Source: Candidatus Bathyarchaeota archaeon (GTDB lineage: Archaea; Thermoproteota; Bathyarchaeia; Bathyarchaeales; Bathycorpusculaceae). From it: a DNA stretch of 64,000 bases. The notes under the pieces were generated by a model. The model worked only from the letters and a program-made list of their open reading frames with translations, ran no database searches and had not been told where the DNA came from. Location: positions 1 to 64,000 of the forward strand of contig JAOZHV010000022.1 in NCBI GenBank assembly GCA_026014725.1. The letters run 5' to 3'. The translations under genes were made by a program, and so were the position numbers. Positions 2-61,683 of this stretch are shown here, one piece after another; the stretch's first letter is position 1; each line of letters begins with the position of its first letter.

Positions 2-988
2 ACAGGCATCCCGCAGGAGCAGGCGGTGGCTATGATGCTGGAACGCTACGAAACCACCAAAGCCTTCTTCCACGGATTCGATTACCGCAGATTCTTCGAT
101 GCCCAACCCAAAGAACGCATAACCATCATCATGGAAGCCATGGAACAGATACTCAAACAGGAAAACGGAAAAGACCGCTACCTAAAAGAAACAACCACGC
201 TGCTCTACGCCTTCGCCCTAGCCGTACCGCACCCAGAAGCACTCAAAATCCGAGACGACGTCGGCTTCTTCCAAGCAGTCAAAGCAGCCATCGTCAAAAA
301 CACCGAAACCAAACAACGCCAAACCCAAGACATAGACTCAGCCATAAAACAAATACTCTCCAAAGCCATCGTATCCGACCGAGTCGTCGACGTGTTCGCA
401 GCGGCAGGACTCAAAAAACCCAACATAAGCATCCTCGACGAGGACTTTCTAGCCGAAATCAAAACCTTGCCCCAGAAAAACCTCGCCTTCGAAACCCTCA
501 AACGCCTCTTAGCCGACGAAATCCGCTTCCGCCAACGCAAAAACCTCATCCAAGCCCGAAGCTTCGAAGAGCTCCTTGACAAAGCCATAAAATCCTACAC
601 TAACAAAAGCATAGAAACCGCGCAGGTCATCCAGCAACTCATAGACTTAGCCAGAAAAATTCGAGAGGAACAAAACAGAGGCACACAACTGAACCTGAGC
701 GACGACGAGGTGGCATTCTACGATGCCTTGGCAAATCATCCGGGCGTTAAAGAAGTTATGGGCGATGAAACCCTCAAAACCATCGCCAGAGAACTCGTAC
801 AAACAATCAGAAACAACGTGCGCATTGACTGGACCCTGCGGGAAAGCGTGCAAGCTCAACTGCGCATTGCGGTTAAACGGATACTGCGAAAGTACGGGTA
901 TCCGCCTGATAAGCAGCAGAAAGCAACCGACACCGTGCTGGATCAGGCTAAGCTGCTAGCCAAAGACTGGGCAGAAACTAATGCGTGA
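2..988 (+). CDS. hsdR: Type I restriction enzyme R subunit, C-terminal part (cut by window edge)
   Basis: The reading frame is open from base 2, so the gene starts left of the window; the GTG at 26 is only an internal codon. The 3' part has the helical C-terminal domain typical of EcoR124-type HsdR subunits. Landmarks are a segment reading FYDALANHPGVKEVMGD, then IDWTLRESV, then KRILRKYGYPPD close to the end. In the family this region follows the nuclease and helicase domains and contacts the methyltransferase core; the complex translocates DNA and cuts far from its recognition site. The catalytic domains and the hsdM/hsdS partners are not in the window. A hairpin follows the stop codon. Base use is CA-rich and ordinary for the window. 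The family call is firm; whether the whole gene is intact cannot be seen. Confidence 0.9.
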   Translation, partial: TGIPQEQAVAMMLERYETTKAFFHGFDYRRFFDAQPKERITIIMEAMEQILKQENGKDRYLKETTTLLYAFALAVPHPEALKIRDDVGFFQAVKAAIVKNTETKQRQTQDIDSAIKQILSKAIVSDRVVDVFAAAGLKKPNISILDEDFLAEIKTLPQKNLAFETLKRLLADEIRFRQRKNLIQARSFEELLDKAIKSYTNKSIETAQVIQQLIDLARKIREEQNRGTQLNLSDDEVAFYDALANHPGVKEVMGDETLKTIARELVQTIRNNVRIDWTLRESVQAQLRIAVKRILRKYGYPPDKQQKATDTVLDQAKLLAKDWAETNA

Positions 989-1012
989 AATATTTAGCGA
1001 AAGGTAACTGAC

Positions 1013-1038
1013 AGCTTTTTAACACTTTTAAAAAAGCT
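1013..1038 (+). terminator. Hairpin after hsdR, likely transcription terminator
   Basis: The arms AGCTTTTT and AAAAAGCT form a perfect 8-bp stem around an AT-rich loop, 25 bases after the hsdR stop. The T-rich arm lies within a T/A-rich stretch. Its position suits transcript ending for the restriction gene, but archaeal termination depends mainly on U-tracts, so the role is inferred. Confidence 0.4.
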
Positions 1039-1107
1039 CATATTAGTCATCCGAATTAACTTTGATATTATCCTTGCAACATAAACAGCGTTACATGGGG
1101 GAAGATA

Positions 1108-3693
1108 ATGTCTGACGGCTGGCATGTTACTGCTATTAACATAACTAGATGGGTAGAGAACAATCAAAGAGAGGCACAGGAAATCCTTCCTCTGTTGATC
1201 AAAAGATTAATTTTTGCGAGCGTAAATGCCTCTTTGATTCGTTTTCCTTCTGGCGATAGCATTGTTCTACCTGGATGGGATGGTATACTCAAAACTGATA
1301 AAGGAAATGCCTTCATACCAACAGGCGACTCTGCATGGGAACTTAGTAATGAAAAAACCGTTAAAACCAAAGCAGATAGCGATTACCTTAAAAGAACCCA
1401 AAACCCCAGCGCCGTTGACAAAAAGAAAGCAACATTCGTTTTTGTAACAAGCCAACGATGGAGTGAACTTGCCAATTGGGTATCTGAGAAGAAATCAGAA
1501 GGGCAATGGGCTGATGTAAGAGCCTTATCGGCTGAAGAATTAGCAGATTGGCTTTCTCAGTGTCCTGCTGTTCATCGATGGTTTGCTAGGTTGATTGGAA
1601 ATAGGCCAGAAGGTGTGTGGGATGCTGAACAAGCTTGGGAGGGTTGGTCGTTAGCGACCAAACCCCAGTGTAATACAAACTTAGTAATCGCGGGCAGAAA
1701 TGACCAAGCTGATAATCTGGCAAACTTTATGTCGCAATCGCCGGAAATTATTGAGGTTTCATCTGATAATAAGGATGAAGCATATGCCTTTATTATCGCA
1801 AGTGTTAAAACACATCCGTGGCTATTACCTCGTTTGTTAGTTGTTAGAGATCAAAAAGAATGGGACCTCCTTATTCAAAATGATAATTCGCTGATTTTGG
1901 TACCTCTCTTCGATCCTTTACCCACACTTGGTCTGGCGGTTAAAAATGGACATTGGGTACTTCTTCCAGCTTTATCTCAGTTTAGTAAAAATGCAAAATT
2001 GTCTTTAAAAAGACCTAGTAAAGATCAACGTCTAAAAGCTCTTATTGAAATGGGCATACCAGAGGAAGCCGCTGAAGATATTGTAAATGATAGCAGACAT
2101 CGGTTGCATATAATCCGTAGGCATTACATGATTGCTCAGGCAGGGCAGCAAAAGCCAGAATGGGCTGATTCTGAAAAAGCAGAAATAATGCTTGCAACAT
2201 TGTTAGCTGGATCATGGTTATCTGACAATCCTAATGATCGCGAAAAGTTAGCCTATCTAGCCAATACTTCATATGACAAGTTGGAACAAACTTTAAACAA
2301 ATGGCTAAATACAGGCGATTTTCCAGTAGAGCATCTTGGCAATAAATGGCAAGTAGTATCTGCTGTTGATTCTTGGCAATTTTTAAAACCCTTTGTAACC
2401 GACTCAATTTTGGACAGATTCGGCAAAGTAGCAGTTGAAGTTCTCAGTGAAAACGATCCCCGCTTAGAACTACCGCCTGAGGAAAGATGGCTTGCAACGT
2501 TACATAAGAAAATAACAAGGTATTCGTCAAACTTTCGCCACGGGCTATCTGAAGGATTGGCCATTCTTGGTAGTTTTGGAGACCGAGATTGCAAAAACTT
2601 AACAACAGATTCGATTCAAGGCATGGTATCTTACTGGTTAATGCAGCTTTTAAATGATACAATGTCTGAGACACAATGGGGTTCGCTTGCACCAGAACTG
2701 GATGTATTAGCTGAGGCTTCTCCAGAAGTATTTTTAGCATCAATCGAAAGTAGCCTTAATAATCAAAATCCACCAGTCTTGTCCCTATTTGTTGACGAAG
2801 GCACCATGGGTGGATGCTCGCATCTGGGATTGTTAAGAGGACTTGAGTATGTTGCTTGGGATTTAAATTATACAAGTCGTGTTGCGTCTATCTTAGCCAA
2901 ACTATCGTTACGTGATCCCGGCGGAAAATGGGCAAACCGTCCATACAGTTCACTTAAAGAAATCTTTAGAGGCTGGTTACCCCAAACAAAGGCGCCCCTT
3001 GATAAAAGACTTGAAATTCTTGATTCTTTAATTACATATAACTCAGCCTTAGGCTGGAAATTATTGCTCGATCTTATTCCGGGAGACCATGAAGTTTCAA
3101 CTCCCATAGGGATACCTCACTTTAGAGATTGGGCAAAAGGCTGGAAAAAGGGCGTTAGCAACTTAGAATACCGACAGCATATATGTGCTATTTCTGAACG
3201 TGTCCTTGGTCAAATTAGCAAAGACCCAGAAAGAGCTTGGTTAAGTGTGAATGAAATTTTAACGCTTCCACAACCATACTTGAGTCAAGCAATTGATCAA
3301 CTGGACAAAGATGTGAGCACACTCAGTAGCAAAACTAAGCTTGTTCTATATAATGAAGTGCTGAAAACGATTTCTCATCATACTCAGTTCTCTAGTGCTG
3401 AATGGGCCTTACATAAGGAATGTATTGAAAAACTCACCACTATTTATCAAAAGTTAATTCCAGTAGACCTAGTAGATAGGTACAAGATTTTGTTTGATAA
3501 TTACTTTGCGCCCATCATAAATCCAGTCCTGTATACAGAACATGAGGAAAATGAGCGAAGAGGAGAAAGCGCTCGCTCTATGGCTTTAGAGGAAATTTGG
3601 AGCAAGGATGGGATAGCCGGAATTGAACGGTTGATTGATAGCGTTCAATTTCCCGGAATAATCGGTAATTCATTAAGTGTAGCTTCGTTTTAG
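1108..3693 (+). CDS. Very large accessory protein, 5' part of a frameshifted gene (861 aa)
   Basis: ATG start behind a strong GGGGGA ribosome site. I do not recognise a named family. The first 180 residues resemble a compact nuclease-like module: GWDG near residue 53, AWELS near 76, KTKA near 84, then a TFVFVTSQRW strand and a WADVRALSAEEL segment. This order could be a diverged PD-(D/E)xK fold, but no clean E-x-K is visible. The rest is helical with many Trp and Leu and no P-loop that I can find. The frame ends in TAG at 3691-3693, directly after a TTTT run (3688-3691). Skipping one T restores a frame that runs on to 4891, giving an undisrupted protein of about 1260 aa. The neighbour is hsdR, so a defence role is plausible but unproven. 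Confidence 0.6.
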   Translation: MSDGWHVTAINITRWVENNQREAQEILPLLIKRLIFASVNASLIRFPSGDSIVLPGWDGILKTDKGNAFIPTGDSAWELSNEKTVKTKADSDYLKRTQNPSAVDKKKATFVFVTSQRWSELANWVSEKKSEGQWADVRALSAEELADWLSQCPAVHRWFARLIGNRPEGVWDAEQAWEGWSLATKPQCNTNLVIAGRNDQADNLANFMSQSPEIIEVSSDNKDEAYAFIIASVKTHPWLLPRLLVVRDQKEWDLLIQNDNSLILVPLFDPLPTLGLAVKNGHWVLLPALSQFSKNAKLSLKRPSKDQRLKALIEMGIPEEAAEDIVNDSRHRLHIIRRHYMIAQAGQQKPEWADSEKAEIMLATLLAGSWLSDNPNDREKLAYLANTSYDKLEQTLNKWLNTGDFPVEHLGNKWQVVSAVDSWQFLKPFVTDSILDRFGKVAVEVLSENDPRLELPPEERWLATLHKKITRYSSNFRHGLSEGLAILGSFGDRDCKNLTTDSIQGMVSYWLMQLLNDTMSETQWGSLAPELDVLAEASPEVFLASIESSLNNQNPPVLSLFVDEGTMGGCSHLGLLRGLEYVAWDLNYTSRVASILAKLSLRDPGGKWANRPYSSLKEIFRGWLPQTKAPLDKRLEILDSLITYNSALGWKLLLDLIPGDHEVSTPIGIPHFRDWAKGWKKGVSNLEYRQHICAISERVLGQISKDPERAWLSVNEILTLPQPYLSQAIDQLDKDVSTLSSKTKLVLYNEVLKTISHHTQFSSAEWALHKECIEKLTTIYQKLIPVDLVDRYKILFDNYFAPIINPVLYTEHEENERRGESARSMALEEIWSKDGIAGIERLIDSVQFPGIIGNSLSVASF

Positions 3694-4891
3694 TGATAGT
3701 ATCGAACAGGGTATATTCCATTGGCTATCGAATGCAAATAGTAAGTACCAGCAAGCAGCAAGTTCTTACATACGTGCAAAGGGCTTTAAGGCAAAAACCG
3801 AATGGTTAGATAGTATTTACAACAAATATTCATCTTCTTGGTCAGAATCGATTTGGGTGGATTTTTGTTTAGGGTTGCCGTTCAATAAGGCCCTTTTTGA
3901 CTTCTTGGAGAAATTTAATGACCTAATAAAAAGTCAATATTGGAAAAATGTGCAAATGTATTTCTTAACAAAAGAAGATGCGCAGTATGCCCAATGGGTT
4001 TTAGAGATGTTAACAGCTAACAACAGACCATTTGCTGCCCTCGATGCTGCCGCAAATTACTTGCAGACCATTGCAAAAGATGCTGAAATAAGCAATGAAG
4101 TATTACTGAAAATACTGGAACAAACAATGGTTAACCCAGAAGATATCAAGACAATTCGGCAAGATATGCTGAGTTATGATTTTAGTTTAATTCTAAAAAG
4201 AATTACAGCGGACGAAAAAATAGATCAGAGTCGAATAGCGAGAATTGAATGGTTTTATATGCCCTTTTTCGGAAACGGAGAGACGCACCCGAAGATACTC
4301 ACTAGTGAAGTTTTGAGGAATCCTGGGTTTCTAGTAGAGCTTATTTGCTTTATGTTTAAGGCAGATCCTCCAATTGATAACGAGTTTTCAGGTATACCTT
4401 CCGCTGTATTAGAAAGTAGAGCACTTAATGCCCATCGCTTAATTGGTTTAGTTAATTCGATTCCTGGACAGAAAAATACTTCAGAAATCGACCTTAATGA
4501 GTTAGACACTTGGGTTAAACAAGTGAGAGAACTGTGTGCCCAGAAGAACCGAAAAAGAATTGGCGATGAAATAATTGGGCAGATACTGTCTCATTCACCG
4601 ATCGGAAAGGATACTATATGGCAGCATGAAGCAGTCAGGGACATAATCGAGCGGTATTGCAGCCATGACATAGAACAGGGGTTAGAAGTAGGTAGATTCA
4701 ACCAACGAGGTGTAATTACTAAATCCTTGACTGAAGGAGGAGAACAAGAGCGGAAGATAGCGGCTAATTATGAAAGTCAAGCCGAGTTGATACGTTATAA
4801 GTTTCCGAGAACGGCTAGTATGCTTAAACGAATGGCTGATACATACAAGCGGGACGCAATACGTGAGGATAGAGACAAAGAACTAATGTAG
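3692..4891 (+). pseudogene. 3' part of the same frameshifted large gene
   Basis: This frame has no convincing start of its own. A GTG occurs at 3857, but coding-like sequence begins right at the frameshift with SDSIEQGIFHWLSNA. It reads naturally as the continuation of the upstream protein (…NSLSVASF followed by SDSIEQG…). The C-terminal 400 residues are helical, with a WVLEMLTANNRPFAALDAAANYL stretch suggesting helical repeats, and a basic tail (KFPRTASMLKRMADTYKRDA). The break could be a real inactivating mutation, a homopolymer error in the assembly, or a programmed shift. The first two are the simplest readings, because a second gene in the window (40.3-41.2 kb) also breaks in a homopolymer. 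Confidence 0.6.
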
Positions 4892-42710: not shown

Positions 42711-42814
42711 TATGCACAAACCTATAGGGGGTAGGTGCTATTGCCGCTTTCTCAAGCCATTAGCATGTTGAAAATCAGCGCTTTAAATAGGGGGATAGGG
42801 TCGATGGCAAAGCA
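42711..42814 (+). repeat. Dispersed intergenic repeat, copy A
   Basis: Two conserved blocks: A1 at 42711-42743 (containing CCTATAGGGGGTAGG and GTGCTATTG) and A2 at 42779-42814 (CGCTTTAAATAGGGGGATA and GGCAAAGCA). Copy B near 51.1-51.3 kb carries both in inverted orientation and order; copy C near 52.0 kb carries 25 bases of A1, also inverted. The rest of the gap before carB contains no ORF of note. Confidence 0.7.
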
Positions 42815-51363: not shown

Positions 51364-51579
51364 CTACTCAAATTCCGAACGCTGCTTCTCCGTTTGCTTT
51401 ATGATATACTGTATAACAAACACGGTCACTTCTCTATGATGAGGAACCCAAGTAGTCAGCACCTTATGCCCCACACGCTTCTTAAAAGTTGTATGCTTAC
51501 TAGAGCGTACTTCTTCAAAGCCGTTGGATTTGAGGATTTCAATTACTTTTCGCTGAGGCAACGGTCGAAGCTTTGGCAC
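51364..51579 (-). CDS. hicA: HicA toxin (mRNA interferase)
   Basis: A double-stranded-RNA-binding-like fold of HicA: KLRPLPQRKVIEILKSNGF (residues 3-21), then SSKHTTFKKR with the catalytic-type His near 27, and TWVPHHREVTVFVIQYIIKQT. I choose GTG 51579 (MPKLRPLPQ) with AGGTG upstream. The product is 71 aa. Its start lies within the end of hicB (41-base overlap). HicA cleaves mRNA and is neutralised by HicB. Confidence 0.88.
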   Translation of the reverse strand: MPKLRPLPQRKVIEILKSNGFEEVRSSKHTTFKKRVGHKVLTTWVPHHREVTVFVIQYIIKQTEKQRSEFE

Positions 51580-51817
51580 GCAAAACACCTTCAGGAACAG
51601 TAACGGCAATATTTGCTAACGAAAGAGACATCAAATCCTCAATCGCAGGCTTAGGCGTATCAGGATCACTTAGGTAATCATCGATTAAATCAGCCATGTT
51701 CGCTTTAACCTCCGCCTCAGATTTTCCCTGCGTAGCAACATCTAAAAGAGGACAAGAAGCAACAAACCATTTTCCCTCTCTGGCAATAATAATCGGGAAA
51801 GGCAACTGAATAGACAT
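51539..51817 (-). CDS. hicB: HicB antitoxin
   Basis: It begins MSIQLPFPIIIAREGKWFVASCPLLD, then VATQGKSEAEVKANMADLIDDYLSD, the HicB partial RNase-H fold. The C-terminus (EGVLRAKASTVASAKSN) has no obvious ribbon-helix-helix or HTH, so DNA binding may be absent or weak. The order antitoxin-toxin and the overlap with hicA are typical. ATG start. Confidence 0.88.
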   Translation of the reverse strand: MSIQLPFPIIIAREGKWFVASCPLLDVATQGKSEAEVKANMADLIDDYLSDPDTPKPAIEDLMSLSLANIAVTVPEGVLRAKASTVASAKSN

Positions 51818-51942: not shown

Positions 51943-52069
51943 CAAAGCACCTAGCCCCCTTTAGGATTTTTCGCGCATACGTAGCGGTTGCGTTTAACGC
52001 ACTGTTTTGCCGCGCTGAAACCTACCCCCTATAGGTTTGTGCATACCACTGATATTAGTATCCTAATAT
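51943..52069 (-). repeat. Dispersed intergenic repeat, copy C, with adjacent dyad
   Basis: 52021-52045 is a 25-base exact inverted match to copy A1 (CCTACCCCCTATAGGTTTGT then GCATA). 51943-51971 resembles the A1' end of copy B (AGCACCTA, then TTAGGATTTT). A perfect dyad ATATTAG-TATC-CTAATAT follows at 52052-52069. The 495-bp gap 51818-52312 contains no other supported gene; AT-rich DNA near 51845-51860 may hold the hicB promoter. Confidence 0.55.
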
Positions 52070-52312: not shown

Positions 52313-54085
52313 TTAGGGCATAGCATCGATAAAAGCATATCTTTTGCGCATAAATTCCCTCAATAGTCCGATGCTTTTTTCGCTTTTGAAGAATTTGTTG
52401 TGGTAGTATTCCGGATCCTTTCTGAGTTCATTTGTGTAGTTGGCTATTTCATTTTTAATGATATCGTATATTTGTTGAAGATTATCACTGTTTCCATCTA
52501 TTTGTTTGAGTATATCCATAATGGCGACTCTATCATGGACAATATCATTGGTTCGACAAATGAAGTCTCTCATTAAATCAAGAACGAAGTACTCGGAGTG
52601 TAGAACTGAGTCATAGGCAGTCAATACTTCTTTAGGCTTATCCCCAGATAGAACCGCCTTTTTAAGTTGCTTGAGCTCTTTTTTATATTCTCTCTTTTTT
52701 TGCTCTACAAATCGAAGAATCTTCCAAGCAAGGAACAATTTTTCTGCAAGCAATTTTTCATTCTTATTGAATACCTGCTCGTAAAAGCCGCTGGTGTCCT
52801 TCACGAATATGCGTCCCTTCTCTGATTTGGATTGAGACGGCATGTTGAGGTATAATGCTAAGAATGCTTGCGCCGCTTTCTCATTACTAATTATCTTATT
52901 TTTATATCCTCTTCCAAAGTTTTGTATCTTTTCTCTGGGGGTTTTGTATGTAGAATCGAACTCTCCTCTTTTTCTTTCATAAAAATATTGGAAACAGCCG
53001 TTTATCACCCTTTGAATAGTAATTTGTACTTCATCGTTTGAAGATAAATCCCTTAGGCGTATAGCATTTTGAGAGTTTGTGTATAAAGTTACGTTTTCAA
53101 TAAACTCTTTTTCATGAGTTTCAATTACTTTCACTAGCAACTCGACGCAGTCATCTAGTTTACCGCTACTATACGCATCAAAAAGAGCATATGTTGTTTG
53201 AGCGCCGTTAATAATCTGGGGTTTTCTCAGGTTCGCCACTCTGCCGCTCGGAACGACATCCACGTTAGAGCAAACGATTGTAATCCCGTTATTAAAATAC
53301 CAGAAATCGTTTTTTCGCTGGCTACTGATTGCTGTCTCGAAAATTTTCTTGTTGATACTTCGTGATTTTAGCCCAAGTGAAAGTCTTACGTTTTGTTGAA
53401 AAATTCGTTCCTTGTAGTCGTTGAATATTTTAGCAAGTTCTATACCCTTACATGTGAAAACGTACGCTTTTCGAGGGCTCTCCTTCTTTAAGTAGCTTGA
53501 AAGTACTGTGAACGATATTCTTTCTGGTGGAGAGGCTACGGACAGAAGAAAACTGCCTTCGTAAAAGTCCTTCAAATCGCAAAAGTTAAAAAATATAACG
53601 TCTGTGCGCTCAAAATCTTTTAGAAATTGCTTTACATATTTATCATCCACAGGATTCTTCTTCATAAAAAGGAATAAAATCTTGGTTTCATAATTACCAG
53701 TATTCACTAGTGCATGATATTCATCAACTAGATTTTCAAGTTCAGGTGTTATTTTACCTTTATAACCGCCAGTTAATAATAACCTCATTCCCTCCAAAGT
53801 TGATTTTACGTCATTTTCGGAGAGGTTTTTTTCGATTTGGTCAAAGCCATTAGTTTTAGCAGAGATAAAGTATATGGTTAAGTTTCTTTCGTCAATGAGT
53901 ACTGCGTCAATTCCTTCTGCGTGTGTATCTTCGACAATTCTTTCCACTATTTCTTCAGGGTCCAAGTACATTGAATTCTCGCCGAACCATACTATTAGAG
54001 AATCATGAATTGACTCCAATTCATATTTTCGATTTACATTTTCTAACAGCATCTGGAACCGGTCATAGAATTCTTTGTTATCCAA
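52313..54085 (-). CDS. AIPR family abortive-infection protein (590 aa)
   Basis: The family core is FWYFNNGITIVC (residues 261-272) and KPQIINGAQTTYA (288-300). The N-terminus has a PD-(D/E)xK-like pattern: D60-AVLIDE followed by IYFISAK (K77). AIPR proteins are named from lactococcal phage-resistance genes such as abiG/abiR-like types; they likely act as nucleases against phage or on host RNA/DNA. TTG start with AAGGTG upstream. It is monocistronic and has its own AT-rich promoter region. Full length, no disruption. Confidence 0.88.
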   Translation of the reverse strand: MDNKEFYDRFQMLLENVNRKYELESIHDSLIVWFGENSMYLDPEEIVERIVEDTHAEGIDAVLIDERNLTIYFISAKTNGFDQIEKNLSENDVKSTLEGMRLLLTGGYKGKITPELENLVDEYHALVNTGNYETKILFLFMKKNPVDDKYVKQFLKDFERTDVIFFNFCDLKDFYEGSFLLSVASPPERISFTVLSSYLKKESPRKAYVFTCKGIELAKIFNDYKERIFQQNVRLSLGLKSRSINKKIFETAISSQRKNDFWYFNNGITIVCSNVDVVPSGRVANLRKPQIINGAQTTYALFDAYSSGKLDDCVELLVKVIETHEKEFIENVTLYTNSQNAIRLRDLSSNDEVQITIQRVINGCFQYFYERKRGEFDSTYKTPREKIQNFGRGYKNKIISNEKAAQAFLALYLNMPSQSKSEKGRIFVKDTSGFYEQVFNKNEKLLAEKLFLAWKILRFVEQKKREYKKELKQLKKAVLSGDKPKEVLTAYDSVLHSEYFVLDLMRDFICRTNDIVHDRVAIMDILKQIDGNSDNLQQIYDIIKNEIANYTNELRKDPEYYHNKFFKSEKSIGLLREFMRKRYAFIDAMP

Positions 54086-56599: not shown

Positions 56600-58006
56600 A
56601 TGAAGAAAATTGTGATGAAGTTTGGTGGAACAAGCGTAGGCACAGGCGAAAACATTCGCCACGTTGCAGACCTAGTTACCCAAAACGCTAAAAAATACAA
56701 AGTAGCAGTTGTTGTTTCAGCGCTCGCAGGAGTCACAAACAATCTCATCGAAAACGCTTGTCAAGCAAAAAAAAGCAACGAGAAAAACATCCAAGCATTC
56801 ACAAAACAACTGCTGGATAAGCACTTAACAGCGATTAAAACAGCCATCAAAAGCAAACAAATTCAAAAAGAAGTAACCCAGATAACAGAGAAAACCATTG
56901 CTGAACTCGAAAAGGTGTTAACAGGCATCTGTTATGTTGGCGAATTGACACCTAAATCAAAAGATTATGTTCTCTCGTTTGGAGAGCGGTTGTCTGCACC
57001 CATCGTTTGGGGCGCCTTAAAAGACCACGGACTAGAGACCCAGTGGCTCACTGGAAAAGAAGCTGGCATCGTAACAGACTCAAACTTTGGCGACGCAGAC
57101 CCCCTGATGAACTTCACCACGCACTTGATTCAAGAAAGATTAGCGCCGCTTTTGGAAAAAGGCATCGTGCCAGTAATCACAGGCTTCATAGCAGCAAACC
57201 AAGACGGCATAGTAACCACTATTGGTCGTGGTGGCTCAGACTATACTGCGACCATCATAGGCGTCGCGCTGAAAGTTGACGAAGTGTGGATTTGGACTGA
57301 CGTAGACGGGATTATGACCACTGACCCCAAGATAGTGCCAGAGGCGAAGATGCTAACCCAACTCAGCTATCAAGAAGCTGCGGAAATGGCAATCTTCGGC
57401 GCCAAAGCCATGCATCCAAGAGCGCTAGGTCCAGTAATCAAAGAAAACATTCCAGTGCGAATATACAACGTGTTCCATCCTGAAGCACAAGGAACGCTGA
57501 TAACGAAGGACCCGATTGAGGCAAAAGAAGTCGTCAAGGCAGTAGCCATGATAAAAGACGTCGCCATGATAAACGTAAACGGCGCAGGAATGGTGGGCGC
57601 GCCAGGCAGCTACGCCAAAGTCTTAGACGTTCTGGGCAAGAACAACATCAACGTCATGATGATATCCACAGCAGCATCAGAAGCCAACATATCAATGATA
57701 ATCAAACGCGGACTCTTAGGACGAGCCATCAGCAACCTAGAAATTGCACTGCTGGAGCGCGGCGGAGTAGTCAGCGAAGTCACAGCAGAAGACGACGTGG
57801 TAGTCATCGCAGTTATGGGCGCGCACATGAAAGGCACCCTCGGCGTTGCCTCACGCATATTCTCAGTCGTTGCCAAGAAAGGGATAAACATTCGCATGAT
57901 TGCTCAAGGTAGCTCAGAACTCAACATTTCGTTTGTTGTTAAAGAGAAAGACGGAGCAGCCGTAGTTAGAGCAATACATGAGGAATTTAACCTAGACAAA
58001 ATATAA
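56600..58006 (+). CDS. lysC: Aspartokinase
   Basis: First step of the aspartate pathway. KFGGTSVG is the nucleotide/aspartate motif (7-14), GFIAANQDGIVTTIGRGGSDYTA (about 197-219) is the kinase core. Two ACT domains at the C-terminus (about 318-400 and 400-468, e.g. VNGAGMVGAPGSYAKVLDVLGKNNINVMMISTAASEANI) give amino-acid feedback. At 468 aa it is complete. It ends the thrC-hom-lysC operon; asd and thrB are not in the window. Confidence 0.96.
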   Translation: MKKIVMKFGGTSVGTGENIRHVADLVTQNAKKYKVAVVVSALAGVTNNLIENACQAKKSNEKNIQAFTKQLLDKHLTAIKTAIKSKQIQKEVTQITEKTIAELEKVLTGICYVGELTPKSKDYVLSFGERLSAPIVWGALKDHGLETQWLTGKEAGIVTDSNFGDADPLMNFTTHLIQERLAPLLEKGIVPVITGFIAANQDGIVTTIGRGGSDYTATIIGVALKVDEVWIWTDVDGIMTTDPKIVPEAKMLTQLSYQEAAEMAIFGAKAMHPRALGPVIKENIPVRIYNVFHPEAQGTLITKDPIEAKEVVKAVAMIKDVAMINVNGAGMVGAPGSYAKVLDVLGKNNINVMMISTAASEANISMIIKRGLLGRAISNLEIALLERGGVVSEVTAEDDVVVIAVMGAHMKGTLGVASRIFSVVAKKGINIRMIAQGSSELNISFVVKEKDGAAVVRAIHEEFNLDKI

Positions 58007-58039: not shown

Positions 58040-58114
58040 ACATAAAAGATTTTAACGATAGGTAGAAAGGATACTGTTAACTTAAAAGGATATGCCTTCA
58101 AAAATAGTTTTTTG
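58040..58114 (+). repeat. 75-bp inverted repeat, left copy
   Basis: Begins ACATAAAAGATTTTAACGAT and ends AATAGTTTTTTG. It is identical, base for base, to the reverse complement of 61228-61302. The two copies enclose the restriction-modification gene and a small zinc-ribbon ORF. It starts 34 bases after the lysC stop. The bases outside each copy differ, with no evident target duplication. Confidence 0.95.
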
Positions 58115-58278
58115 AGGTGCTGTTACTTCTTCGGTTATTTCTGCCGATGGGAAAGAGTGTTACTTTTAGGTTGATAAATAACGTGACCGAGCCACACTCC
58201 ATTTACTAAGTACCTTACTATGACTTTTAAAAGTATGACAAATTTAATAAATAAATCATTGGCACTAAACGGTTAACT

Positions 58279-61002
58279 ATGGACAAAGCAAAGGCTCTAG
58301 ATGAAATCAAAATTTTAGTTGAAAACTATGAGCGAGTTGTAAATGAAAACAGGGTAAAAACCTACAATGAAGAATCGACAAAGAAGGATTTTATCCTACC
58401 ATTGTTTGAGGCTCTGGGTTGGAAAGTCAAGGATTCGAGAGAGGTTTCGGCTGAAGAAACAATATCTAAGAAAAGAGTTGATTATGGTTTTAGGATTAAT
58501 GGCATACCCAAGTTTTTCTTAGAGGCAAAATCATTAAAAGAGGACTTGGATGCCCCTAAATTTGTGGAGCAAGCAATTAACTATTCTTGGCTTAAAGCCT
58601 GCACTTGGGCTATTTTAACAAATTTTGAGACTATACGAATTTTTAACGCTGAATGGAAAACAGCGCGTCTTTTTGATAAACATTTTCGAACAATCCATTG
58701 CTCTGAGTTTGTAAAAAGATTTGATGAATTATGGTTTCTTTCAAGGGACAGTTTCGTATCAAACGCTTTGGATGATGAAGCTGAAAAGTTAGCTAAACGA
58801 ACTAAAAGGATGCGTGTTGACAAACAGTTATGGACAGACTTATCACGGTTTAGAGAGATGCTTTCAAAGAGTGTAACTAAGCTTAATCAGACAAAACAAC
58901 TCAGTCACGAAGATTTGGATGAAGCCATTCAGAGAGTATTGGACAGACTGATTTTCATACGATGCTGTGAGGATAGGGAACTAGAGCCAAGAATTTTGAT
59001 TTCAAATCTTAGAGACTGGGAAAGCAAAGGTAGAGGACAATTAATAAAAAGTTTGCGAGAAGTTTTCAGTTCCTTCAAAACAATATATAACAGCGAAATC
59101 TTTGCTCCCTCAGAATGTGACGAACTAGAAATTGACAATGATAGCCTTCATGAAATTATTCAAGGATTGTATTACACCAAGGATGAGATGGGGCAATATG
59201 ATTTTTCTGCTATTGACGCTGACATTTTAGGCAATATTTACGAGCAATATCTTGGGCATATCCTAAGAAAAACCGAAAAGAGAGCCACAGTAAAGCAGAA
59301 CTACAGGCATCGAAAGCAAGAAGGAATCTATTATACACCTACCTACATTGTAGATTATATTGTGGAAAGCACTGTAGGAGAACTTCTCAAAAGAAAGAAG
59401 GTGGATGTTCGAAAAATCCGTGTGTTAGACCCTGCTTGTGGTTCAGGTAGTTTTCTGATTAAGGCTTTTGATTATCTTTATAGTAATTACGCAAAAAGTG
59501 ACGAAGGAAAACAGGCATTATTAGATTTTAAAACGGGCATCATATTTCAGATGGAAGTTCAAATTCTTTTGAACAATATCTTTGGCGTGGATTTAGACAA
59601 ACAGGCAGTTGAAATTGCAAGACTTAATATTCTGCTAAGACTCGCTGAAAGTGGTCAAAGACTACCGCTGCTGAAACAGAACATTAAACTTGGAAATTCA
59701 TTAAGTAGCGACCAGACAGTAGCTGGCGACCGAGCATTCAATTGGAATGAACAGTTTAAGGATATAATGAGTCAAGGTGGCTTTGATGTAGTAATGGGAA
59801 ACCCGCCATACTTAGACTCTGAAGAAATGGTGAGGTCACAACCAGAGCTCCGAAAAGCATATGCTCGTACTTTCGAAACGGCAAAAGGTAATTGGGATAT
59901 TTTCTGTATCTTCTTGGAAAAAGGAATTAGCCTTCTTAAAGACGGTGGCTATTTGGGTATGATTGTTCCGAATAAGTTGCTGTCTGCCGACTACGCAACC
60001 GCAATCAGGAATTACATAAAAAAGTACAGAGTTGTTTCTATACGGGACTATTCAAACGTTCCAGTTTTCCAAGCAAGTGTTTATCCTGTGGTGATTGTTA
60101 TTCAAAAAGTACCACCAAAAAACAACAAATTAATAGCAGAAGTAATGGAACCCTATGCGGGTGGAGTTCAAATTGAAAACCGTAGAGATGTTAATCAAAA
60201 AGACTTAGCTAGCGTTGAAAATACTTGGTCACATATTTTCGGTGAAGCAGGAGAAAAAGTCAGAGATAAGGTTCTAGCAAACTCCGAACGTCTGGGCAAC
60301 ATTGCTGACGTTTCAGGCGCTGCTTCAGTATCCGAAGCTTATGCAATAAAGCCACTAATAACTGAATTAAGGGGTCAACGGAGCTATTTCAAATTTATAA
60401 ATACTGGGACTGTTGACCGCTACTCTTGCCTATGGTCTATTTTTAAGACTGCTTACATAAAAACAAGATACAACCAACCAATAATAACAAAAAATGACCT
60501 CTATAAGTTCTCCAAAAGCCGTTATGAACAAGCCCAAGCAACCAAAATCGTTATCGGTGGAATGAACAAGAGAATCGAGGCTTATCTCGACGATGGAAAC
60601 TGCTTTGCAGGAAAATCTACAGGAATAGTGCTGAATGCTAAAATAAACCCGAAAATTCTTCTAGCACTCTTGAACAGTAAACTGATGACGTTCTATTACA
60701 AGAATGTTTTCAAAACCTTGTCCCTTGCAGGTGGTTTCATGAGAATAGGTTCTCCACAGATAAAAAAACTCCCGATTAGAAATGTTCCTTCCGATGTAGA
60801 ACCGCGGCTAATTCAACTAGTCGATAGAATAATTGCCCTTAACCAACGATTAAACATGATATACTTCAAAAAAACAGAAGAACACTATTTTGTGGAAGAA
60901 GAAATACGTAAAACCGATGCCAAGATTGATGAATTGGTTTACCTGATATATGGAATAACTGAGCCAGAAAAGAAAATCATAGAAAAAAATGTTCAAGTTT
61001 AG
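58279..61002 (+). CDS. Single-chain restriction-modification enzyme, type IIG-like (907 aa)
   Basis: An N-terminal PD-(D/E)xK nuclease is clear: D68 (KRVDYGF) and E82-A-K84 (FFLEAKSL). A helical linker with KRxxRVDKQLW (about 175-185) follows. The methyltransferase has motif I VLDPACGSGSF (382-392), YYTP at 351-354 and motif IV GNPPY (507-511), which is adenine-specific. The C-terminus (about 650-880) is TaqI-type target recognition, seen in FKFINTGTVDRY… and SLAGGFMRIGSPQIKKLPI. It should both modify and cut at one asymmetric site. ATG start; AT-rich DNA near 58242-58252 may be the promoter. No other RM subunit is adjacent. Confidence 0.92.
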   Translation: MDKAKALDEIKILVENYERVVNENRVKTYNEESTKKDFILPLFEALGWKVKDSREVSAEETISKKRVDYGFRINGIPKFFLEAKSLKEDLDAPKFVEQAINYSWLKACTWAILTNFETIRIFNAEWKTARLFDKHFRTIHCSEFVKRFDELWFLSRDSFVSNALDDEAEKLAKRTKRMRVDKQLWTDLSRFREMLSKSVTKLNQTKQLSHEDLDEAIQRVLDRLIFIRCCEDRELEPRILISNLRDWESKGRGQLIKSLREVFSSFKTIYNSEIFAPSECDELEIDNDSLHEIIQGLYYTKDEMGQYDFSAIDADILGNIYEQYLGHILRKTEKRATVKQNYRHRKQEGIYYTPTYIVDYIVESTVGELLKRKKVDVRKIRVLDPACGSGSFLIKAFDYLYSNYAKSDEGKQALLDFKTGIIFQMEVQILLNNIFGVDLDKQAVEIARLNILLRLAESGQRLPLLKQNIKLGNSLSSDQTVAGDRAFNWNEQFKDIMSQGGFDVVMGNPPYLDSEEMVRSQPELRKAYARTFETAKGNWDIFCIFLEKGISLLKDGGYLGMIVPNKLLSADYATAIRNYIKKYRVVSIRDYSNVPVFQASVYPVVIVIQKVPPKNNKLIAEVMEPYAGGVQIENRRDVNQKDLASVENTWSHIFGEAGEKVRDKVLANSERLGNIADVSGAASVSEAYAIKPLITELRGQRSYFKFINTGTVDRYSCLWSIFKTAYIKTRYNQPIITKNDLYKFSKSRYEQAQATKIVIGGMNKRIEAYLDDGNCFAGKSTGIVLNAKINPKILLALLNSKLMTFYYKNVFKTLSLAGGFMRIGSPQIKKLPIRNVPSDVEPRLIQLVDRIIALNQRLNMIYFKKTEEHYFVEEEIRKTDAKIDELVYLIYGITEPEKKIIEKNVQV

Positions 61003-61166
61003 GTTTTGGGAATTGTAAAGCTCAACTTGCCATTATGATAGTATTCAAAAATGTTCTTCTTACAATTTGGACATGGATACCTTTTAACATGATAATAATG
61101 ATTATGAAAATCCCATTCTTTAACAGGTTTGTCTGGTACTTCTGAACCGCATCTCGGACATTTCAA
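60999..61166 (-). CDS. Small zinc-ribbon protein (55 aa)
   Basis: TTG 61166 with AGAGG eight bases upstream. The protein has two CxxC knuckles: CPRCGSEVPDKPVKEWDFH at the start and CPNCKKNIFEYYHNGKLSF later, plus a His-rich middle (HNHYYHVK). It ends TIPKT. Its stop overlaps the RM gene's stop by three bases on the opposite strand. It lies inside the inverted-repeat-bounded unit, so it travels with the RM gene. Such ribbons can bind DNA or RNA or help protein folding; its role here is unknown. Confidence 0.6.
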   Translation of the reverse strand: MKCPRCGSEVPDKPVKEWDFHNHYYHVKRYPCPNCKKNIFEYYHNGKLSFTIPKT

Positions 61167-61227
61167 ACCTCGTCGCCTCTGCCTACTTTACATTCGGTTT
61201 ATTTATATAATTTTACTTTGCCAGTCA

Positions 61228-61302
61228 CAAAAAACTATTTTTGAAGGCATATCCTTTTAAGTTAACAGTATCCTTTCTACCTATCGTTAAAATCTTTTAT
61301 GT
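61228..61302 (-). repeat. 75-bp inverted repeat, right copy
   Basis: The perfect inverted copy of 58040-58114; outer ends are 3263 bp apart. A looser, degenerate echo of part of the repeat (AACTTATCAGTATC … CGTTAAAACTT) lies just outside at about 61312-61345, upstream of the MNT gene. This may be a remnant of an older copy or the original target. Confidence 0.95.
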
Positions 61303-61368
61303 TGGGTCACTTAACTTATCAGTATCTATTAGCGTTAAAACTTAAAAAGCAAATTAACCCAATTAGTC

Positions 61369-61683
61369 ATGGAAGACTGGTTCATGAAGTCGCTAACAGA
61401 CATGAAGGCTCAACTCGAAGAGCTAAAACCGATTCTTAGAAAAAGATTCCAAGTGGAAACCATTGGGATTTTTGGCTCTTACTCAAGAAAAGAACAGAAA
61501 AAGAACAGTGACATTGACCTCTTGGTTACTTTCGTTGAGCCAAACGATATTGACCTCGTAGATTTTATTGAAATCAAGCAGTTTTTAGAGCGCAAGCTAA
61601 AGATGAAAGTAGACTTGGTGACAAGAAGCGCGTTAAAGCCATTGATTCGAGATAGAATTCTTGAAGAGACGATTTACGTTTGA
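61369..61683 (+). CDS. Minimal nucleotidyltransferase (MNT-type, 104 aa)
   Basis: Core motif G36-S37 … D48-x-D50 (IFGSYSRKEQKKNSDIDLLV) is the minimal nucleotidyltransferase domain, which in MNT/HEPN pairs serves as the antitoxin that AMPylates its HEPN toxin. KVDLVTRSALKP gives the third acidic strand. The ATG at 61369 or 61384 may start it. No HEPN gene is next to it; downstream is the converging sufB/D, so it is solitary or its partner is lost or distant. It lies just outside the RM cassette. Confidence 0.85.
   Translation: MEDWFMKSLTDMKAQLEELKPILRKRFQVETIGIFGSYSRKEQKKNSDIDLLVTFVEPNDIDLVDFIEIKQFLERKLKMKVDLVTRSALKPLIRDRILEETIYV

Follow-up and report, generated by a model that had tools for sequence, protein, structure and literature searches.

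Published members of the IS6 family are about 700-890 bp long, with the longest at about 1.76 kb (Varani et al. 2021, PMC7986276; Harmer and Hall 2019, PMC6807381). They generate 8-bp target duplications, a single passenger-bearing member (ISDsp3) has been reported, and zinc-finger N-terminal extensions are known in clade h (PMC7986276; PMC6807381). The locus that we describe belongs with a set of probably archaeal elements whose transposases resemble those of IS6: the transposases score on the models NF033587 and DDE_Tnp_IS240 and have a zinc-finger extension, and the terminal inverted repeats (TIRs) of these sister elements are short. The sister elements differ from IS6 in that their target site duplication (TSD) is 9 bp rather than 8 bp, and in that they are 0.3-6 kb long, most of them with cargo, in contrast to about 0.8 kb filled by the transposase. 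Because of these departures in length, duplication, and cargo, the group with GATACTG ends and 9-bp TSDs looks like a new variant of IS6, a placement made by model scores.

Elements that move without a transposase of their own, and elements that carry passengers, are established. Mobile insertion cassettes (MICs) and transporter ISs comprise transposase-less IS-derived structures that can be activated by a cognate transposase, and IS copies with passengers (PMC3129680). The locus is like MICs in that its cargo lies between IS ends with no transposase, with one of the ends shortened, and in that its own genome has a candidate cognate transposase with a similar TIR variant (G000:C47). It differs in the hosts, in the type of transposase, and in the cargo, which here consists of restriction-modification (R-M) or restriction genes.

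Mobile R-M genes have other precedents. Furuta, Abe and Kobayashi 2010 (NAR 38:2428) reportedly described mobile R-M units bounded by long inverted repeats, some of them with a short target duplication. Their report is cited in PMC3031569 and PMC10609329. Our locus is similar in having R-M genes with long inverted repeats and different in that the transposon family and the transposase have both been identified and that one end is shortened. Tn7-like transposons carry defence and R-M cargo, and the study that reported this found no Tn7-like transposases in archaea (PMC8649781). The element described here shares the R-M cargo and the repeated transposase-binding sites at the ends, which are putative in our case, but contains no Tn7 genes. 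A search of the literature, incomplete in its coverage, found nothing to the point on such elements in this lineage.

The inverted arms and the genes between them

The R-M gene is flanked by a perfect inverted repeat. Positions 58040-58114 and 61228-61302 of the window (the entire 64-kb stretch of DNA that was analysed) are exact reverse complements over 75 of 75 nt and are separated by a spacer of 3113 nt, as a first-pass annotation of the sequence had claimed. A flawless match of this length excludes chance as the source of the arms. There is one other inverted pair of at least 24 nt in the window, a 49-nt pair with 88% identity that belongs to an unrelated dispersed repeat. The 2.56-Mb genome has no copies of the 75-bp arm other than the two at this locus. 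We searched for it in 150 relatives, a check that had been proposed with the annotation, and found no copy, and a search of viral contigs with a 21-bp piece of the arm found nothing. The identity of the arms suggests that the event was not old. It fits the recent formation that had been proposed, although the event is undated.

The arms enclose a single-chain Type IIG restriction enzyme-methyltransferase. The gene (58279..61002, plus strand), identified with PADLOC and domain searches, is uninterrupted and encodes 907 aa, with an HSDR_N-like nuclease region that has an EAK signature at residue 82, and with the motifs DPACGSG at 384 and NPPY at 508. The annotation was right in this respect also. 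Domain matches were to Eco57I, N6_Mtase, TaqI_C, and HSDR_N, and the best PADLOC model was REase_MTase_IIG (E 3e-127). Nuclease, N6-adenine methyltransferase, and recognition domain of the TaqI_C type are thus combined in one chain, as in Type IIG (Eco57I/TaqI-like) enzymes. Judging from the intact reading frame, the enzyme is presumably still a restriction barrier. The converging zinc-ribbon ORF that had been noted (61002..61166, minus strand) is real, though short (55 aa, with a TTG start), and had no relatives among the loci compared at that stage. The ORFs between the arms do not include a transposase, which agrees with the earlier reading.

The R-M gene appears to have come from outside the lineage. 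Of the homologues found, the closest (59-67% identical) come from Hadesarchaea, Woesearchaeota, Altiarchaeota, and a MAG whose record reads uncultured bacterium. The homologues make an archaeal origin of the window likely, and the families of eight other window proteins did not decide the taxon. Relatives from the same genus or family have a more distant homologue (44-55% identical) or none. That the best homologues are in other phyla while those of nearer relatives are more divergent suggests that the gene was acquired by horizontal transfer. The G+C content of the gene is 0.374, compared to 0.466-0.468 for the aspartate kinase and SufD genes alongside. No inverted repeats were found around those R-M homologues that had sufficient flanks, other archaea included, and the closest homologues, those in other phyla, are without GATACTG-type ends. 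Elsewhere in the same genome (G000:C52:50478-50618) there is a 47-residue fragment that matches the N-terminal region of the enzyme at 64% identity and that is likely the remnant of a second R-M copy.

Perfect inverted arms around a single gene could also be the recombination sites of an invertible cassette that flips the R-M gene for phase variation, the second possibility raised in the annotation. We found no support for this and consider it scarcely credible. There is no recombinase among the ORFs at 50-64 kb or in the domain searches of neighbouring genes. Since the arms also enclose 164 bp upstream of the R-M gene, an inversion would probably carry the gene's own promoter along with it. 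Furthermore, the arms are accounted for as the interior of a transposon TIR, as described below.

The right terminus and the missing left terminus

The right arm is continued outward by a transposon end. The motif GATACTGATAAGTTAAGTGACCC (61304..61326, minus strand), 1 bp outside the right arm and in the correct orientation, is the terminal repeat of a transposon family. It has two mismatches to the family consensus GATACTGTTAAGTTAAGTTACCC and places the right terminus at 61326. We first met this terminus in the relative G003 during a search of relatives with the right flank, as an inverted pair of the sequence that adjoins the right arm externally. The window end fits the terminal motif GATACTG[TA]TAAGTTAAGT[TG]ACCC with two mismatches. 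Read inward, the end consists of GATACTGTTAAGTTAAGTTACCC, after which several of the copies have AACATRA, and the 75-bp arm is the continuation. The window TIR is therefore 99 bp in total, and both the left arm (58040..58114, plus strand) and the right arm (61228..61302, minus strand) correspond to its positions 25-99. The arms had been taken for the boundaries of the element; this was incorrect, as the right-hand repeat extends beyond its arm to 61326 and its left counterpart is shortened. There is no target duplication at the boundaries of the 75-bp arms, a result that was at first counted against a transposon, until the real right end was located.

The window TIR is far longer than those of other family members, whose ends match exactly over at most 25 bp. 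Both arms contain an inner copy of the terminus motif, GATACTGTTAACTTAA, that starts 54 bp from the end (58070..58085 on the plus strand in the left arm and 61257..61272 on the minus strand in the right arm). Subterminal motifs such as GATACTGTTAACTTAA are often transposase-binding sites, and we regard these copies as putative sites of this kind. A likeness between the right arm and the adjoining downstream segment was considered as a possible local duplication and rejected, as it is this subterminal repeat of the TIR.

The left terminus is missing. The first 24 bp of the TIR are absent on this side and from the rest of the window, and there is no second copy of the window terminus in the assembly except in the element on contig C47. 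By the 9-bp rule of the complete family members, the right target duplication is expected to be TATTAGCGT at 61327..61335. This sequence occurs once in the window, at 61327; its left partner and the left flank are lost. The window copy is thus without the paired ends and the TSD that would prove transposition, and because the inverted partner terminus is absent, our claim is of a remnant rather than a complete member of the family. Based on the right TIR, the arms, and the TIR and TSD structure of the family, we delimit a non-autonomous cargo-transposon remnant at 58040..61326 with a complete right end and a shortened left end. We infer that the left terminus was removed by a deletion after insertion. 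With bases 1-24 of the left TIR and the target duplication gone, the element probably no longer moves.

An assembly error might produce a similar picture if the left arm or its junction were chimeric and the real locus had a full left end, or none. The genome is a draft in 63 contigs and the arms are exactly identical, both of which would suit such an error. We nevertheless give it very little weight: the window is within a 300-kb contig, the right end carries a genuine TIR of the family, and the genome contains no other copy of the arm that could have been the source of a mis-join.

A family of elements with GATACTG ends

The terminal motif defines a family that is present in related genomes. 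We searched for GGGTCACTTAACTTATCAGTATC (61304-61326), allowing up to three mismatches, and found it in 15 of 151 genomes, compared to none for a control with the reversed pattern. When the consensus was searched across the class, 14 of 257 genomes had matches, and the control had one. In fetched loci of related genomes, with C47 of the window's own genome included, we delimited 13 elements with paired GATACTG-type ends. Twelve of these have 9-bp TSDs (11 exact, one with 8 of 9 positions). A scan of 0.82 Mb found 11 exact pairs of 9 bp and no 10- or 11-bp pairs; in the reversed sequence there were no pairs at all.

The duplications occur in elements with and without a transposase. Among the transposase-bearing elements, the TSDs are CGAAAAAAC (L158, in the same genome as the window, G000:C47:147-4520), GTTCCAACA (L200), GCCATCACC (L202), CTTTTGAAG (L205), and CCCTATGCC (L204); L201 has identical 23-bp ends and no duplication. 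Among the transposase-free elements, they are GATAATGCA (L126), TGGCTCAAG (L152), and TGGATTGAG (L165), all three with cargo, and CTGCCGCCT (L154), AGCCGTTAT/C (L159), TGTTTCTGT (L161), and CTACTGCAC (L164). The same 1735-bp cargo element with the duplication TGTTTCTGT is found in L161, L162, and L163 (genomes G102, G111, and G117), apparently at one site, and is probably an inherited insertion. At three other loci, where the ends are GGTTCTG or GATTCTG, the duplications are 8 bp long, as in ordinary IS6 elements. A separate 578-bp element (L193 1286-1863, G098:C27) has a perfect 52-bp inverted repeat that begins GGTTCTGTTAACTC... and an 8-bp duplication, TTGAACCC. Its ends are of the ordinary IS6 type and its TIR is unusually long.

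Six of the 13 elements (L158, L200, L202, L205, L204, and L201) encode an IS6-type DDE transposase of about 300 aa. These transposases are 47-78% identical to the copy in L158 and have an N-terminal zinc ribbon and invariant residues D110, D169, and E209. Their scores on the NCBIfam IS6 model NF033587 were 124-138 bits against a cut-off of 125, with one of five just below, and they also matched DDE_Tnp_IS240 and zinc domains of the IS1/IS1595 type. In viral contigs, a search for the transposase gave matches at the level of the zinc ribbon only. The transposase-bearing elements are 2.2-6.0 kb long and carry other genes, and elements of all kinds range from 0.3 to 6 kb. The other seven have no transposase, and their content ranges from a few genes or a single gene to no recognisable feature (MITE-like).

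The cargo of several sister elements consists of restriction genes. L200 carries a methyltransferase with HSDR_N, a specificity subunit, and a DUF3800 protein; L205 carries a methyltransferase, a specificity subunit, and an AAA_14/DUF4143 protein; and L202 carries GmrSD and a UPF0175/DUF3368 pair. The R-M genes of L200 and L205 are Type I-like. The element L158, at 147-4520, also carries an NYN-domain protein and a 448-aa ORF, and just inside its right end there is an ARAGORN call for a tRNA-Ser with the unusual anticodon ACT.

The element on C47 is the candidate source of transposase for the window element. Its right TIR, AAGTTACCC, is a variant close to those of the window and of the transposase-free elements, and the transposases of G016, G054, and G035 pair with other TIR variants. 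The contig C47 is short, at 4.7 kb, and may have been assigned to the wrong bin.

Taken together, the results make us quite confident that the locus is a transposase-free copy of an IS6-related transposon with a Type IIG R-M passenger, and that its left end was deleted after insertion. A transposase of the family, produced from another locus in the cell, would bind the GATACTG... terminal repeats of a transposase-free cassette, cut it, and insert it with a 9-bp target duplication. The copy carrying the R-M gene would have inserted upstream of a nucleotidyltransferase gene, between it and the aspartate kinase gene. A later deletion would have taken the 24 outermost bp on the left, the left flank, and the target duplication, such that what is left of the 99-bp TIR is the 75-bp inverted repeat and the copy is now probably fixed. 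The complete copies of the family, with their 9-bp TSDs and cargo, and the transposase in the same genome support the original suggestion of a passenger mobile element moved in trans. The mobilisation in trans, like the activities of the transposase and the R-M enzyme, is predicted from sequence.

For the family as a whole, we lean somewhat toward the view that it is an undescribed IS6-related group, probably archaeal, with 9-bp TSDs and habitual defence cargo (Type I-like, Type IIG, and GmrSD-type restriction), in which transposase-bearing elements of 2-6 kb mobilise transposase-free cassettes. If so, the family may be a main route of R-M genes in this lineage, and the R-M genes may aid the persistence of the transposon. 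The traffic of restriction and defence genes between uncultured archaea is little understood so far, and the family provides a concrete vehicle for it, one whose ends, target duplication, transposase, and cargo are defined. A 23-bp signature makes it possible to trace a portion of the defence load in these genomes. The family also puts a transposase of the IS6 type at the centre of cargo transposons with several genes, a kind that is almost absent from the IS6 literature.

The insertion site and its neighbours

The right boundary of the element coincides with the start of sequence that is shared with relatives. Outside the element are an intact aspartate kinase gene on the left (56600..58006, plus strand) and a nucleotidyltransferase gene (NTP_transf_2) on the right (61369..61683, plus strand), both identified by domain search. 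A promoter-like segment of the nucleotidyltransferase gene starts just past the right end of the element and is common to relatives that have no element there. Two relatives, G013 and G005, share (A)CGTYAAAACTTAAAA upstream of the same nucleotidyltransferase, only outside the predicted right end, and the segment after TATTAGCGT (CGTTAAAACTTAAAAAG) matches the promoter region of this gene in both. There was no TIR upstream of the nucleotidyltransferase gene in G013 or G005. Empty sites, which the annotation had proposed to look for, were also sought by synteny, and none was found. The aspartate kinase and SufD genes are not adjacent in the relatives that were checked and the neighbourhood is rearranged, so a true empty site could not be read.

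This rearranged neighbourhood bears on a different origin for the arms, in which 75 bp of the right side were duplicated on the left of a horizontally acquired R-M gene, by template switching or by an inversion with staggered breaks, with no transposon involved. The lack of a TSD at the 75-bp boundaries and of a terminus on the left copy would also be expected from such an event. We consider it improbable because the right arm adjoins a correctly oriented transposon end of the family, and because a homologous gene lies inside the same kind of end in G013. There, a perfect family end is followed, about 90 bp inward, by the start of the Type IIG gene (44% identical), and the extension CCCAACATRAAAG is common to this end and the window TIR; the other end of the G013 element was sought and not found. 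Insertion of a transposon with later loss of its left end is the reading that we prefer.

Other genes and repeats near the element were recorded. The nucleotidyltransferase at 61369-61683 matched PADLOC PDC-S09, without an evident adjoining partner, and has many paralogues in the genus. An AIPR/AbiU-like gene (52313-54085, minus strand; PADLOC AbiU, E 1e-42) and HicA/HicB-like ORFs (51364-51817) form a small defence-type cluster near the R-M element. A dispersed short repeat, ACCTACCCCCTATAGGTTTSTGCATAGA, is in the window at 42712-42736 (minus strand) and 52020-52044 (plus strand). It is also present at L109-L112, L114, L120, L122, and L125 and at L089 3493, with several more copies in the sampled parts of the same genome, and it is found in the relative G013 too.
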